Of a DNA stretch of 64,000 bases, positions 3,800-63,945 are shown piece by piece. The notes under the pieces were generated by a model. It saw nothing but the letters and a program-made list of their open reading frames with translations. It was not told the DNA's origin and did not search any database. Source of the DNA: Desulfolithobacter dissulfuricans (GTDB lineage Bacteria; Desulfobacterota; Desulfobulbia; Desulfobulbales; Desulfobulbaceae); NCBI RefSeq assembly GCF_025998535.1, contig NZ_AP024233.1:2302001-2366000 (forward strand). Reading direction: 5' to 3'. The stretch's first letter is position 1. Each line of letters starts with the position of its first letter. Position numbers and translations under genes: made by a program.

Positions 3800-4598
3800 A
3801 AAATTAGGACATAATTTCAGTCAGTTGACCAGAAAGACAAAAACAGAGAAAAGCACAATATGATGCGTGATAAAACCAGGAAGAACACTACATAGAGTGG
3901 TTGCGGTCAAAGCCAGCAGCACCTGCCTGTAAGCCTCCCCAGGGCATGCCAGACAGGAACTGCCTGTTCTTAAAAGAGAAAAAAAAGGGACCCGAAAACC
4001 TGAAATTATGCTCCCATCAGCCATTCCAGCCAGGTGGGACAAGGTGGGGTACAAAGTGGGGTGCGAAGTGGGGGAGAAAAAGGAGTGGATGGGATAACGC
4101 CCGCGATGTTATCCCTTCAGGGGGATACCATCGCCTGGGTGCGACGGAGATGGAAAGTTTGCTGGCCAGAGTAACCGGACCACATCCGTAAACGTACACG
4201 TGAACGAGAGAGAATAAAGAAATTCGTGTACGTGTACGTTAACGTGTACGAGCACGAGCACGAGCACGGGATGGTTCCCGCGATATACTTCCTTCCCGGG
4301 AATACCATTGGTTTTGTGCTACGGAACTGGAAAGAGCCCGGTACACCCAAAACCCCTCGTTCCTCCGCTCCGCGGTGAACGATCCATCACCATGGTCACC
4401 GCCCCTGCGGTGCCTACTCCAACCTGGAAGGTGGCAGGATGGCTCCGGGGTTGCATCTCCCCCGGGTGATTCGCCCTTGACCGGGTTTTGGCATCATCCC
4501 GCAGGAGCGGGGGCGGAACTGCAGGGGCTTTGTCGACCCTTGGTCATGCGCGTGACACCGCGGGAGCGGATGTCACGAGGATTTGCAGGGTGCAGGGA
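3800..4598 (+). repeat. composite intergenic repeat block (between mraZ and panB)
   Basis: No convincing gene lies here. 4031-4078 holds a degenerate 12-base tandem (GTGGGGTACAAA-type units, about four copies). 4081-4160 is a decayed copy of the GATGTTCCCGCGAT...ATACCATCGC module. 4188-4268 is the six-base-periodic hairpin (GTACACGTGAACGAG / AACGAGCACGAG type). 4268-4410 is the module ending in the palindrome at 4358-4381, with stems CGTTC/GAACG and CCGC/GCGG. Further CCGC/GCGG hairpins continue to about 4585. The same order of modules recurs many times in the window. Confidence 0.85.
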
Positions 4599-14884: not shown

Positions 14885-15286
14885 TATCTGGTCTACGTCC
14901 GTGAACGTTCACGTGAACGAGCATGAGCACGGGAATGGAGGCCAGCGTCACCCCGCAGGAGCGGGGATATGACTTTTCCCGCTCCGCCGGGTCCCCGGTC
15001 AATTGCGTGACACCGCAGGAGCGGATGTCACGAGGGTTTTTGGGTTTGGCCATCGTCCTGAGGAAGATAGCTGTTGTGCTGGATTATCCCTCTCCATCCG
15101 TGAACGTACACGTGCTCGTGCTCGTACACGTGAACGAGAGGGAAGAAAGGAATTCGTGGACGTTAACGTTTACGGGCACGAGCACGGGATGCTTCCCGCG
15201 ATATACTTCCTTCCCGGGATACCATTGTTCTTGTACTACGGAGCTGGAAAGCTCTCGGTACACCCAAAACCCCTCGTTCCTCCGCT
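14885..15286 (+). repeat. composite repeat block, left part interrupted by the IS element
   Basis: It begins with a hexamer arm (14898-14933), then CCGC-AGGA-GCGG hairpins, the two-arm hexamer hairpin (15098-15189) and the GATGCTTCCCGCGATATAC module up to TTCCTCCGCT at 15277-15286. There the repeat stops abruptly, and it resumes at 16757-16759 with CTCCGCGGTGAACG. Confidence 0.9.
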
Positions 15287-15300
15287 TCCATGAGAAGGCT

Positions 15301-15600
15301 TGTCAAGAAAAGTTCGACGTGGCGAACCATTTTTTTTATAAATCCCTGTAACGTCAGGCTTCCATTCGCATTCATATAAAGAGCTCAGCCATAAGCTCGA
15401 TGCATCGTACAATCCGTCGTGGAAGCTGCAACCTCCGCGGCGGTCTTTGAATATGTCACTGGCTGATGACGGACCGAGCGGTGTCACGCAGTCTTCCGGA
15501 CGGGACGTTTTTTTGAGGGAGATATTAAAAACTCTCAACTGCCTTTGGAAACAGAAGGAAAAACATCCTTTTTTCCCTTTGTTCACTCTCTGGTTCAACC
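15301..15600 (-). ncRNA. candidate bridge RNA region of the IS110/IS1111 element
   Basis: IS1111-type elements carry their bridge RNA 3' of the recombinase gene. On the transposase strand this region contains CCGCGGAG (complement of 15433-15440), which matches the reverse strand of the right half of the target with its core. It also has CCGCTC (complement of 15476-15481), matching the left half with core, and ATGGAAG (complement of 15359-15365), matching the reverse strand of the element's own left end with core. CGGTC/GACCG could close the loop holding the two target matches. The exact RNA ends are unknown. Confidence 0.45.
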
Positions 15601-15607
15601 GGGTTTT

Positions 15608-16690
15608 CTACGCAGCCTTTGCCAGGGGGCGAGATTGCGGTTTGTAAAAAGGGTCATATATCTCACCGTGCTGCCAGAGGCGATGCATGAGTACCGCCAG
15701 TTTTCTGGCTACGGCAACCACGGCACGACGCTTTGCGTTTTTACCTCCCCTGGCTGCCAGGCGAAGACCAAATCTTCGTAAATTGCAATCCTCTCCAAAA
15801 GGTCCCAGGATGTACTGGGCCGAACCGACCAGTAACCTCCGCAGATAGGGGTTGCCCGCTTTGGTTATCCGAAGCTGCCTGTCGGTTTCTCCTGACTGGT
15901 CGCGGCGGGGAGTCAGGCCAAGAAAACATCCAACCTGTCTACTTTTGCCAAATCGTGCCGGGTCTTCCACGATTAATAGAAAGGCCAGGGCCGTCAGAGG
16001 ACCAACTCCTTTTATGGCCCGCAATAATTCGGTCTCCGGGTATCGCTCCGCACTGATACGCTCTATTTCCCTGTCAAATTCTTTGATCTGGGACGTAATC
16101 TGGCCGATAATTGTCAATACAGGCTCCAGAGCGCCACGTAAGTCTTCAGGAAGATGTTCATCTGCCTGCCGGTGAAAACTGTCTGCGCTGCATCCCGGCA
16201 GGCGATATCCCAGCGCCTTGACACTGCCACGAACATGGTTGATCAGGCTGGAGCGGTTCCTCACCAGGACATCCCTGGCCTGCAATATCTCCAGATCAAT
16301 CTGGGCCTGTTCGCCCCTGTGGTTGACCGGATAGAGCAGATCAGGATCCATCCGGGCTATGCGGGCCAGCATTTCAGCGTCTCTGGTATCTGATTTATCG
16401 TTGCTGTCCCAGATGGCGCGTAATTTACGAGGGTTGCCAACCAAAACATGGCAGCCCAGCCTGGATAACAGCCTGCTGATCCAGGCCGAATGGGTACCGG
16501 CTTCAAGGGCAACAGTTGCCCCTTTATGGGGTGAGAAAAACTCACTCAACGCCTCTCTGGTATTAGTAACCGTATCTCGACGCACGATTCGGCCTGCATG
16601 ATCAACAATACAGATAACATGATTTTTATCGCCAAGGTCCATTCCGATTGTTACATTGTGCATGGCTGGTTCTCCCAGGTTGTGCAGCAT
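15608..16690 (-). CDS. IS110-family transposase (DEDD recombinase)
   Basis: RNA-guided-type DEDD transposase of 360 residues; the ATG ten codons in (MHNVTIGMDLGDKNH) is an equally likely start. The RuvC-like N-terminal domain shows the acidic set: D in GMDLGDKNH, E in VALEAGTHSAW, and D residues in DKSDTRDAEMLARI. The C-terminal transposase_20 domain contains LLRAIKGVGPLTALAFLLIVEDPARFGKSRQVGCFLGLTPRRDQSG and ITKAGNPYLRRLLVGSAQYIL. The frame is intact and both ends are recognisable, so the element may be active. It is the only transposase seen in the window. Confidence 0.95.
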   Translation of the reverse strand: MLHNLGEPAMHNVTIGMDLGDKNHVICIVDHAGRIVRRDTVTNTREALSEFFSPHKGATVALEAGTHSAWISRLLSRLGCHVLVGNPRKLRAIWDSNDKSDTRDAEMLARIARMDPDLLYPVNHRGEQAQIDLEILQARDVLVRNRSSLINHVRGSVKALGYRLPGCSADSFHRQADEHLPEDLRGALEPVLTIIGQITSQIKEFDREIERISAERYPETELLRAIKGVGPLTALAFLLIVEDPARFGKSRQVGCFLGLTPRRDQSGETDRQLRITKAGNPYLRRLLVGSAQYILGPFGEDCNLRRFGLRLAARGGKNAKRRAVVAVARKLAVLMHRLWQHGEIYDPFYKPQSRPLAKAA

Positions 16691-16758
16691 TCGACTGCGG
16701 TTATTCTTGAGCGTGTTTATAACACAGCTCGCGGGGAATCAGCCTTCTCATTTTACCT

Positions 16759-16920
16759 CCGCGGTGAACGATTCCATAATCAACGGTCACCGCTCCTGCG
16801 GTGCCCACTCCAACCTTGGATGTGGCAGGATGGCTCCGGGGTTGCATCTCACCGGGTGGTTCGCCCTTGACCAGGCTTTGGCGTCACCCCGCAGGAGCGG
16901 ATGTCACGAGGTTTTCTGGG
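16759..16920 (+). repeat. composite repeat block, right part beyond the IS element
   Basis: Continuation of the block broken by the IS: right half of the target palindrome, then ACCGCTCCTGCGGT, the GGATGGCTCCGGGGTTGCAT module and CCGC-AGGA-GCGG to about 16912. It abuts the 3' end of the PP-loop gene. Confidence 0.88.
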
Positions 16921-19964: not shown

Positions 19965-20790
19965 CCGTAGGGGCAGGCCCCCGTGCCTGCCCCTACGGAT
20001 ACGACACAACAGCCCCCCTTCCTCAGGACGATCTCCAACCCAAAAAAACCTCGTGACATCCGCTCCTGCGGTGTCATGCGCATGCCCAAAGGGCCGACGG
20101 AGAGGCAAAAATCCTGTCCCCGCTCCCGCGGGGGTGACGCCAAAACCCGAGCAGGGGCGAACCACCCGGGTGAGTTGCAACCCCGGAACCATCCTGCCAG
20201 CTCCCAGGTTAGAGTGGGCACCGCAGGAGCGGTGACCGTGGTGATGAATCGTTCACCGCGGAGCGGAGGAACGAGGGGTTCTGCATGTACCGGGCGCTTT
20301 CCAGCTCCGTGGCACAAAAGCGATGGTATCCACTGAAGGGATCACATCGCAGGAACCAGCCCGTGAACGTGCTCGTGAACGTTAACGTACCCGTGCACGT
20401 ACACGTACACGAATTCCTTTATTCTCTCTCGTTCACGTGTACGAGCACGGGCACGTGGACGGTCACGGACGCAAACCGGATACCCGAACCAGCCGCTCGT
20501 CTTCCCCCAAGACCTCGTGACATCCGCTCCTGCGGTGTCACGCGCATGCCCAAAGGGCCGACGGAGAGGCAAAAATCCTGTCCCCGCTCCCGCGGGGGTG
20601 ACGCCAAAACCCGAGCAGGGGCGAACCACCCGGGTGAGTTGCAACCCCGGAACCATCCTGACGCCTCCCAGGTTAGAGTGGGCACCGCAGGAGCGGTGAC
20701 CGTGGTGATGAATCGTTCACCGCGGAGCGGAGGAACGAGGGGTTCTGCGGGCATCGGACGCTCTCAGGCGGCCGACATCAGCGGACAAAG
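19965..20790 (-). repeat. composite repeat blocks, two tandem copies in inverted orientation
   Basis: The only large blocks in the minus orientation apart from the right-end array. A GGCAGGC...GCCTGCC repeat (19969-20000) is followed by one block (about 20050-20340), a hexamer hairpin (20360-20470) and a second, nearly identical block (about 20510-20755). Each holds CCGC/GCGG hairpins and an intact palindrome (20250-20273 and 20714-20737). They fill the divergent recN-dtxR region; no gene is seen. Confidence 0.88.
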
Positions 20791-21597: not shown

Positions 21598-22106
21598 TGC
21601 AAGCCCTCCTTTGAGCCATGGATCTACGATACACCTGTTTCGGCCAGGATGTTATATCATATCATAAACCATGGGAAAAGAGAGGAGTACCTGAATTGAA
21701 CGTTTCATCACCCCGCAGAGCGGGGCATGGCCTGACGCCACTTCGTCGGCTACCCGGTCACCTGCGTGACACCGCAGAGCGGTGATCACGAGTTTTTCAA
21801 GGTAGCCTTTATTTGTTGCCTGCAGAAGCGTACTTTGAGCAGCCAGGTTTTTTCCACAGGCAGAGAGAAGAAGCAATGTTGTTATCCCTCATATCGGTGA
21901 CAGCTGAGCTTTGGTAGTAATCACAAACAATTACAACTGGTTTTCTTTTAAAGTGTTGCAGGTAAGCGGAGACTCCGGATGGGTGAATCGCTCAATTCAG
22001 GGAGTATGTTTTCCGTTTCCATGCCCGGATCCTGCCGGTATACTGCAGTAGAAGGCCAGACTGGAAGACCAACCTCAGCCACTGCCAAGCCCCAGAGACT
22101 ACACAC
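21598..22106 (+). repeat. gene-free region upstream of gspF with a short repeat fragment
   Basis: 21705-21795 contains a compact version of the CCGC/GCGG hairpins (CACCCCGCAGAGCGGGG and GTGACACCGCAGAGCGGTG) with loops shortened to AGA. About 21958-21977 carries the motif shared with 1853-1872. No coding potential is convincing; the 74-residue minus-strand open frame here has no family features. Confidence 0.6.
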
Positions 22107-31139: not shown

Positions 31140-31401
31140 GTATCGTTGGAAGCACACTCTTTCAGATGAACAGCATTACTTTTCAATTATCTTTCCGTGC
31201 TCGTAACCCGTACCCGTGCTCGTGCTCGTACACGTTAACGTACACGTACACGATTTCCCTTTTCATTCGTTCACGAGCACGTGGACGAGCACGTTCACGT
31301 TCACGGAAATTCGCTGCTCCGTATATCGGCCTTGCCGACCCTGGACTCTCCACACTCCGTCGCCATTTGCTGTAAAAACCGATACCCAAACAACCTGCTC
31401 T
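31140..31401 (+). repeat. hexamer-repeat hairpin between the lipoprotein and yjbH-like genes
   Basis: 31197-31305 holds only the six-base-periodic hairpin: GTGCTCGTGCTCGTACACG type on the left, GAGCACGTGGACGAGCACG on the right. The CCGC/GCGG modules are absent. It lies at the 3' end of the polysaccharide export genes and could act in the transcript as a large stem-loop. Confidence 0.8.
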
Positions 31402-62890: not shown

Positions 62891-62939
62891 TTTTATGCTG
62901 CTTGATGGCCTGGGATTGACCATGAGGCTGTGCTGGGGC

Positions 62940-63945
62940 TTGGGGTGGTATACCGCGGAGCGGTATGCGGATCGCTGGTGCTCATGGCAGATAAGGGCAA
63001 TCGGTCGTTCACCGCGGAGCGGAGGAACGAGGGGGATGTGCGGGAGCCTGGGGTACGGGAGGTGACCATGGTTGTTTTATTGCCAGGTAGCGGTGTTTTG
63101 TCCTTGGACCACGAGGCTGTGTTGGAGGTTGAGGTGGTATACCGCGGAGCGGTATGCGGACCGCAGGTGCTCATGGCAGATAAGGGCAATCGGTCGTTCA
63201 CCGCGGAGCGGAGGAACGAGGAGGGTGTGCGGGTGCCTGGGGTACGGGAGGTGGCCATGGCTGTTTGATCGTCAGGTAGCGGTGTTTTGTCCTTGGACCA
63301 CGAGGCTGTGTTGGGGTTTGGGGTGGTATACCGCGGAGCGGTATGCGGATTGCTGGTGCTCATGGCAGATAAGGGCAATCGGTCGTTCACCGCGGAGCGG
63401 TGGAACGAGGGGATGTGGGGGAGCCTGGGGTACGGGAGGTGGCCATGGCTGTTTGATCGTCAGGTAGTGGCGTTGTGTCCTTGGACCATGAGGCTGTGTT
63501 GGAGGTTGGGGTGGTATACCGCGGAGCGGTATGCGGACCGCAGGTGCTCATGGCAGATAAGGGCAATCGGTCGTTCACCGCGGAGCGGAGGAACGAGGGG
63601 GATGTGCGGGAGCCTGGGGTACGGGAGGTGACCATGGTTGTTTGATCGTCAGGTAGTGGCATCGTACGTTAGGGCCATGAGTGTGTGTATTGGTTCAAGG
63701 TGTTATACCGCAGAGCGGTATGTGAGTCACATTCGGTCATGGCAGATAGGGGTTGTCGGTCGTTCACCGCAGAGCGGAGGAACGAGGCGTACAACCGCCA
63801 ACCACAGAACCATCCGCGTGATCAGAAGCGTTCAGGGCTTGGAGGCGTTACCGCCAGGCGGTATGCGTACCGCATGCGCTTCAGGCAGACCTGGGAAGTC
63901 GGGCGTCACCGCGGAGCGGTTGAACGAGGGGTAACCTCAGGTACG
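62940..63945 (-). repeat. 189-bp tandem array built from the REP-like palindrome family
   Basis: The motif GGTATACCGCGGAGCGGTAT starts at 62947, 63136, 63325 and 63513, a period of 189, 189 and 188 bases. Decayed copies lie near 63702 and 63846. Each unit also has the minus-strand form of the CGTTC...GAACG palindrome (63006-63029, 63195-63218, 63384-63407 with one change, 63572-63595). The near multiple-of-three period leaves several frames open, but the peptides are low-complexity and differ in frame preference, so I do not call a gene. Confidence 0.85.

Follow-up and report, generated by a model that had tools for sequence, protein, structure and literature searches.

REP-specific elements of the IS110/IS1111 type have already been published: ISPa11, ISPpu9 and ISPpu10 (PMC1525189) as well as IS621 (PMC11208160). 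IS1111 family members are defined by subterminal inverted repeats (sTIRs), terminal extensions of 7 and 3 bp and a 3' non-coding region (NCR) (PMC11187229). In IS1111 seekRNAs, the T guide precedes the B guide, which is opposite to the order in IS110 (PMC11187229). A promoter at the circle junction is also known in this family (PMC11187229).

Anatomy and boundaries of the element

The window analysed here comprises 64,000 nucleotides and corresponds to positions 2302001-2366000 of the complete 3,596,428-bp host genome. The mobile element located on its minus strand at 15287-16758 is a 1,472-bp insertion sequence of the IS1111 group. It is composed as follows:

15287..16758, minus strand: complete IS1111-group insertion sequence, 1472 bp; extent common to seven essentially identical genomic copies
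16752..16758, minus strand: left terminal extension AGGTAAA, 7 bp, beginning with the target-shared AG (sequence and copy comparison)
16741..16751, minus strand: left sTIR ATGAGAAGGCT (repeat search, 11 nt, 100%)
15608..16690, minus strand: transposase gene, 360 aa, with DEDD/RuvC domain, Transposase_20 and GLTPRRDQSG motif (PF01548, PF02371, NF033542)
15290..15300, minus strand: right sTIR AGCCTTCTCAT (repeat search, 11 nt, 100%)
15287..15289, minus strand: right terminal extension GGA, 3 bp (sequence and copy comparison)

The transposase matches PF01548 (DEDD_Tnp_IS110, E 7.7e-19) and PF02371 (Transposase_20, E 2.7e-21) and reaches 233 bits against the NCBIfam model NF033542 'IS110 family RNA-guided transposase' (cut-off 140). 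It aligns to the solved structures of IS621 and ISCro4 and has kept the motifs KSDTRDAEMLA and GLTPRRDQSG. The protein combines the DEDD domain with the C-terminal Transposase_20 domain and the GL-P----S(T)G motif typical of IS1111. In gene sense, the ends read AGGTAAA-ATGAGAAGGCT...AGCCTTCTCAT-GGA in all seven copies, which fix the extensions at the expected 7 bp on the left and 3 bp on the right. The sTIRs are perfect over 11 bp (~11-13 bp in the group), and the longer non-coding region is found 3' of tnp (321 bp downstream vs 68 bp upstream). In every testable criterion, the element conforms to the IS1111 group. The layout of the IS110 group proper (IS621-like), with an RNA region upstream of tnp and no long sTIR, was not found; the element does not fall on the IS621 side because its RNA lies downstream and its gene-sense core is AG.

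An earlier sequence-only reading had assigned the element to IS1111, and transposase domains, 11-bp sTIRs, extensions and 3' NCR bear this out. The sTIRs it had described are present at 15290-15300 and 16741-16751. From its extent, 15285-16758, the end could be retained, while the start included 2 bp of the target and has to be moved to 15287. Its circle junction, joining 16758 to 15287, agrees exactly with the ends defined by the seven copies. Two hexamers would be brought together at this junction:

15301..15306, minus strand: TTGACA, -35 half of the promoter predicted to form on end joining (sequence)
16750..16755, minus strand: TAAAAT, -10 half of the predicted circle-junction promoter, 17-bp spacer (sequence)

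With 15287 joined to 16758, the predicted junction reads CATGGA / AGGTAAAATG (slashes between spaces denote junctions), and closing the circle at these inferred ends yields TTGACA-17-TAAAAT with exact 17-bp spacing. Equivalent promoter hexamers, likewise 17 bp apart, are formed in four other elements. Because the joined ends form a predicted promoter with 17-bp spacing, the boundaries are independently supported.

Genomic copies and empty targets

The complete 3.6-Mb genome contains seven full copies of the element, which are identical over 1,478 bp save one base in one copy. All seven junctions read CACCGC(G/C)G / AGGTAAA...GGA / AGCGG in a single orientation relative to the target, and no full copy was found elsewhere. 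Every copy (7/7) occupies one base of an interspersed palindrome, as do REP-targeting ISs of 'type 1'. In the window, the interrupted target consists of two halves:

16759..16766, minus strand: left half, CACCGCGG (sequence and copy comparison)
15282..15286, minus strand: right half, AGCGG (sequence and copy comparison)

Rejoining the flanks of the window copy gives CCTCCGCTCCGCGGTGAACG, the same as in uninterrupted repeat copies. The target can also be written as one string, CACCGCGGAGCGGTG. Beyond the shared motif, the palindrome contexts in the seven copies are CGGAGGAACG, CGGATGTCAC, CGGTGATCAC and CGGTGTGCTG. At the junction, flank and element share nothing but AG (CT on the plus strand). 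That the element sits precisely in the palindrome loop, as proposed in the sequence-only reading, is confirmed; full copies in unrelated sequence, which would have spoken against it, were searched for, and 7/7 lie in the same motif. The proposed CT core as in IS621 stands as far as CT is shared on the plus strand. It is not identical with that of IS621: the transposase is encoded on the minus strand, and read in this element sense the two shared letters are AG. This parallel is an analogy rather than an identity and depends on the strand read.

Uninterrupted targets are abundant. A sequence search of the window yielded 14 exact copies of the palindrome CCGCTCCGCGGTGA:

4365..4378, plus strand: first empty target palindrome CCGCTCCGCGGTGA
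Starts of the others, plus strand: 12958, 29831, 37995, 39007, 41420, 45336
Starts of the others, minus strand: 20253, 20717, 63009, 63198, 63387, 63575, 63906

In 100 dinucleotide shuffles, CCGCTCCGCGGTGA was not found (14 vs 0). The window has 18 occurrences of CCGCTCCGCGG, and CACCGCNGAGCGG with at most one mismatch has 102 matches genome-wide vs 16 for the reversed control. The empty sites compared are paralogous repeats within the same genome. These counts uphold the large stock of empty targets claimed earlier, and all 12 sites then listed exist, with the matched core beginning ~7 bases past each listed coordinate. Many targets are concentrated at 2.30-2.42 Mb of the genome, including a 189-bp tandem array. 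At 62918-63787, 4.6 tandem copies of this 189-bp unit carry two CCGC-GGA-GCGG palindromes per unit, and most copies contain an exact empty target of the element. Degenerate 6-bp runs of the GTGAACGT/CGTGCTCGTG type adjoin palindromes at 14900-15190, 20362-20408 and 31268-31299, including beside the IS.

The predicted guide RNA and its relatives

The sequence-only reading did not contain a mechanism for target choice, which appears to be readable in the 3' NCR of the element. Because a guide RNA is predicted there, the choice of target can be explained. The relevant segments are:

15395..15509, minus strand: scaffold of the predicted guide RNA (seekRNA), conserved hairpin with hypervariable internal loop (alignment, consensus fold, covariance model)
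15476..15484, minus strand: T guide ACACCGCTC, complement of GAGCGGTGT (right target half, top strand)
15433..15440, minus strand: B guide CCGCGGAG, with the letters of the left target half and of the AG core, and so complementary to the bottom strand of that half
15358..15365, minus strand: ATGGAAGC, kept in relatives and matching right IS end and core; tentatively, a possible donor-recognition segment

In gene sense, the T and B stretches are located ~40 bases apart. Both guide 8-mers in T-then-B order were obtained in 0/5000 dinucleotide shuffles of the NCR. In consensus, seven related sequences fold into a long hairpin with nearly invariant stems, whose internal loop presents T and B opposite each other. 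The top-strand match lies 5' of the bottom-strand match, as expected for an IS1111 seekRNA, a property read here from sequence and fold only. The T guide matches the 2.417-Mb site at 8/8 positions. Since it matches the window site at only 6/8, pairing beyond AGCGG seems to be loose. An Rfam scan of the element gave no matches; therefore, no curated family covers the guide RNA, and an own covariance model was built.

This model of the scaffold found matches in 15 of 258 genomes (class sample). The relatives share the hairpin scaffold and differ in loop letters and flanks, which change together. The complete genome G119 from the same order contains a relative with 68% identity, whose seven copies without exception reside in AACTGATG / AGAAATG and whose guide loop reads TGATGAG and ATTTCT. 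The relative in G081 combines the site GACTTGTG / AGAAACC with the guide TTGTGAG and GTTTCT. A sister copy at 744-751 kb of the host genome occupies CAGGTA / AGCGACC and has the guide GGTAAG and GGTCGTT, the latter matching via one G-U. In a larger sister subgroup, the site is GGTA / AGCGAAGACT and the guide GGTAAG together with CTTCGCT or AGTCTTCGC. When guides were compared with their own targets, B matched at 50/56 positions vs 36 under permutation (p ~0.005) and T at 65/80 vs 50 (p ~1.5e-5, inflated by related rows); as the elements are related, these p-values are indicative only, and the letter-by-letter changes of guide and target are the stronger evidence. When only the four most divergent elements were compared, the true guide-target pairing was the best of 24 on each side.

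Some targets of the relatives are repeats themselves. GGTAAGCGAAGACTCC, the target of the sister subgroup, is interspersed in the host genome (28 matches with at most two mismatches vs 1 for the control). Uninterrupted GGTAAGCG(A/G)AGACTCCG, which sister IS1111 elements use as their target in related genomes, is present in the window at 21961 and, as two 17-bp tandem units, at 1854-1887. The target repeat of G119, AACTGATGAGAAATG, has 85 interspersed copies (30 exact; control 0), which are often found inside CGCCGCCTGAACTGATGAGAAATGCGGGTT. It was also considered as the end of another transposon. Because neither an inverted partner nor a neighbouring gene was consistently present at the 12 copies examined, it is treated as an orphan repeat.

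Further observations concern incomplete copies. The host region 743400-751600 contains the diverged sister IS1111 as an old copy broken by two apparent IS21-type insertions (integrase and ATPase-like ORF pairs, judged by eye). A truncated relic of the same IS as in the window is located at 1406.9 kb of the host genome (~900-1146 of 1406000-1408000). It has kept guide RNA and right end, carries the same T guide and a B guide with two different letters, and adjoins the palindrome half GCGGATGTCACGAGG. In G097 (C42:13000-15700), a 306-bp mini-element that carries the guide hairpin and the two IS ends but lacks a transposase gene is found in GGTA / AGCGAAGACTCC.

A search of genome contigs for relatives yielded one other genome only, a Desulfobulbaceae MAG (G011) from the same family. 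The plasmid search gave none at E below 1e-40, and a phylum-wide protein search added one fragment and nothing more. A literature search for IS110 elements of this host group and for non-autonomous bridge-RNA elements found none.

Proposed mechanism and comparison with known systems

With high probability, the element is an autonomous IS1111-group IS that excises as a circle and is reinserted in an RNA-guided manner at one base of the loop of a REP-like palindrome. By analogy with tested family members, the following steps can be proposed: The element would excise as a circle, whose joined ends would build the TTGACA-17-TAAAAT promoter driving transposase and guide RNA. The DEDD transposase would bind an RNA of ~80-115 nt from the 3' NCR. 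This guide RNA would pair with both strands of the empty palindrome loop, and strand exchange would occur at the shared AG.

Alternatively, the transposase might itself recognise the structure (hairpin or cruciform) or the DNA sequence of the palindrome, in which case the guide match would be incidental. This would agree with insertion in a palindrome loop and with the use of REP loops by other ISs, among them ISPsy8 with its two-frame (OrfA/OrfB) transposase (PMC1525189). However, sisters with 68-79% identical transposases use unrelated sites (AACTGATG / AGAAATG, GACTTGTG / AGAAACC and GGTA / AGCGAAG), and their guide letters follow those targets. In addition, the transposases of four IS1111 elements, one of them the REP-targeting ISPa11, were each found to have an NCR-derived seekRNA bound (PMC11187229), so that direct recognition is considered very improbable. 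Nor do the seven copies look like one insertion that was copied together with its flanks by inter-repeat recombination. Several flanks do lie in the same composite repeat, e.g. those of the 838-kb, 3171-kb and 3203-kb copies, but right flanks cease to agree within 5-30 bp, and in one copy CACCGCGG is replaced by CACCGCCG. Because the flanks fall into several palindrome contexts (four were hit: CGGAGG, CGGATG, CGGTGA and CGGTGT), one copied locus fails to explain the pattern, and we regard such a common origin as hardly credible.

A naming question, which leaves targeting unchanged and is compatible with RNA-guided reinsertion, is whether the target repeats are true RAYT-dependent REPs. There is a substantial chance, not far below even, that they are another interspersed or tandem repeat and that 'REP' is a misnomer. 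The genome encodes five Y1-transposase genes (Y1_Tnp); a RAYT link was not found in their flanks, 0/5 having a CACCGC-loop-GCGG palindrome in the flanks examined. The clustering of many targets at 2.30-2.42 Mb, tandem array included, points in the same direction, whereas short palindromes, mosaic layout and dispersed copies fit the term 'REP-like'.

The preferred reading, RNA-guided reinsertion, makes this genome a natural data set: seven near-identical copies and dozens of empty targets in one finished genome, complemented by sister elements whose guides and targets changed together. From it, the rules by which the less-studied seekRNAs of IS1111 elements pair may be read from nature (core AG, ~6 bases left, ~3-6 right), and the element might offer a compact system for programmable insertion at multicopy sites. 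The few elements available suggest that the lineage tends toward host repeats. More speculatively, and with some doubt on our side, one IS1111 lineage in this bacterial order might repeatedly redirect its guide RNA to any short repeat that happens to be abundant: the palindromes in the host genome, the 85-copy AACTGATGAGAAATG in G119 and GGTAAGCGAAGACTCC repeated in the host genome. If this is true, safe-haven repeats would drive guide evolution, and tnp-less mini-elements consisting of ends and guide RNA only would spread alongside.

Guiding by seekRNA and targeting of REPs have both been published before, so that the general picture is unchanged and the element is a new, well-documented example of a known RNA-guided system. 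ISPa11 (IS1111, Pseudomonas aeruginosa) resembles it in anatomy, 3' NCR seekRNA, the location of all copies in REP at one position (PMC11187229, PMC1525189) and the lack of a target duplication. Host group, repeat and guide differ, and the insertion point is another one: ISPa11 separates bases 6 and 7 of its REP, the present element resides in the loop between the arms. ISEc11/ISXne4 (IS1111) have the T-before-B seekRNA and the circle-junction promoter that are predicted here (PMC11187229), and there, too, close relatives have been naturally re-aimed through altered guide letters (PMC11187229); in contrast, their target is a short linear site without palindromic repeat. ISPpu9/ISPpu10 from P. 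putida have every copy at one exact REP base with a 2-bp shared sequence (PMC1525189), but differ in host, repeat and guide. IS621 (IS110 group) has a DEDD transposase, a loop-guide RNA, a two-base core and REP targets, too (PMC11208160). However, its RNA is located upstream of the gene, as in the IS110 group, and long sTIRs are lacking, whereas the RNA of the present element lies downstream; the IS621 core is CT and that of the present element, in gene sense, AG.
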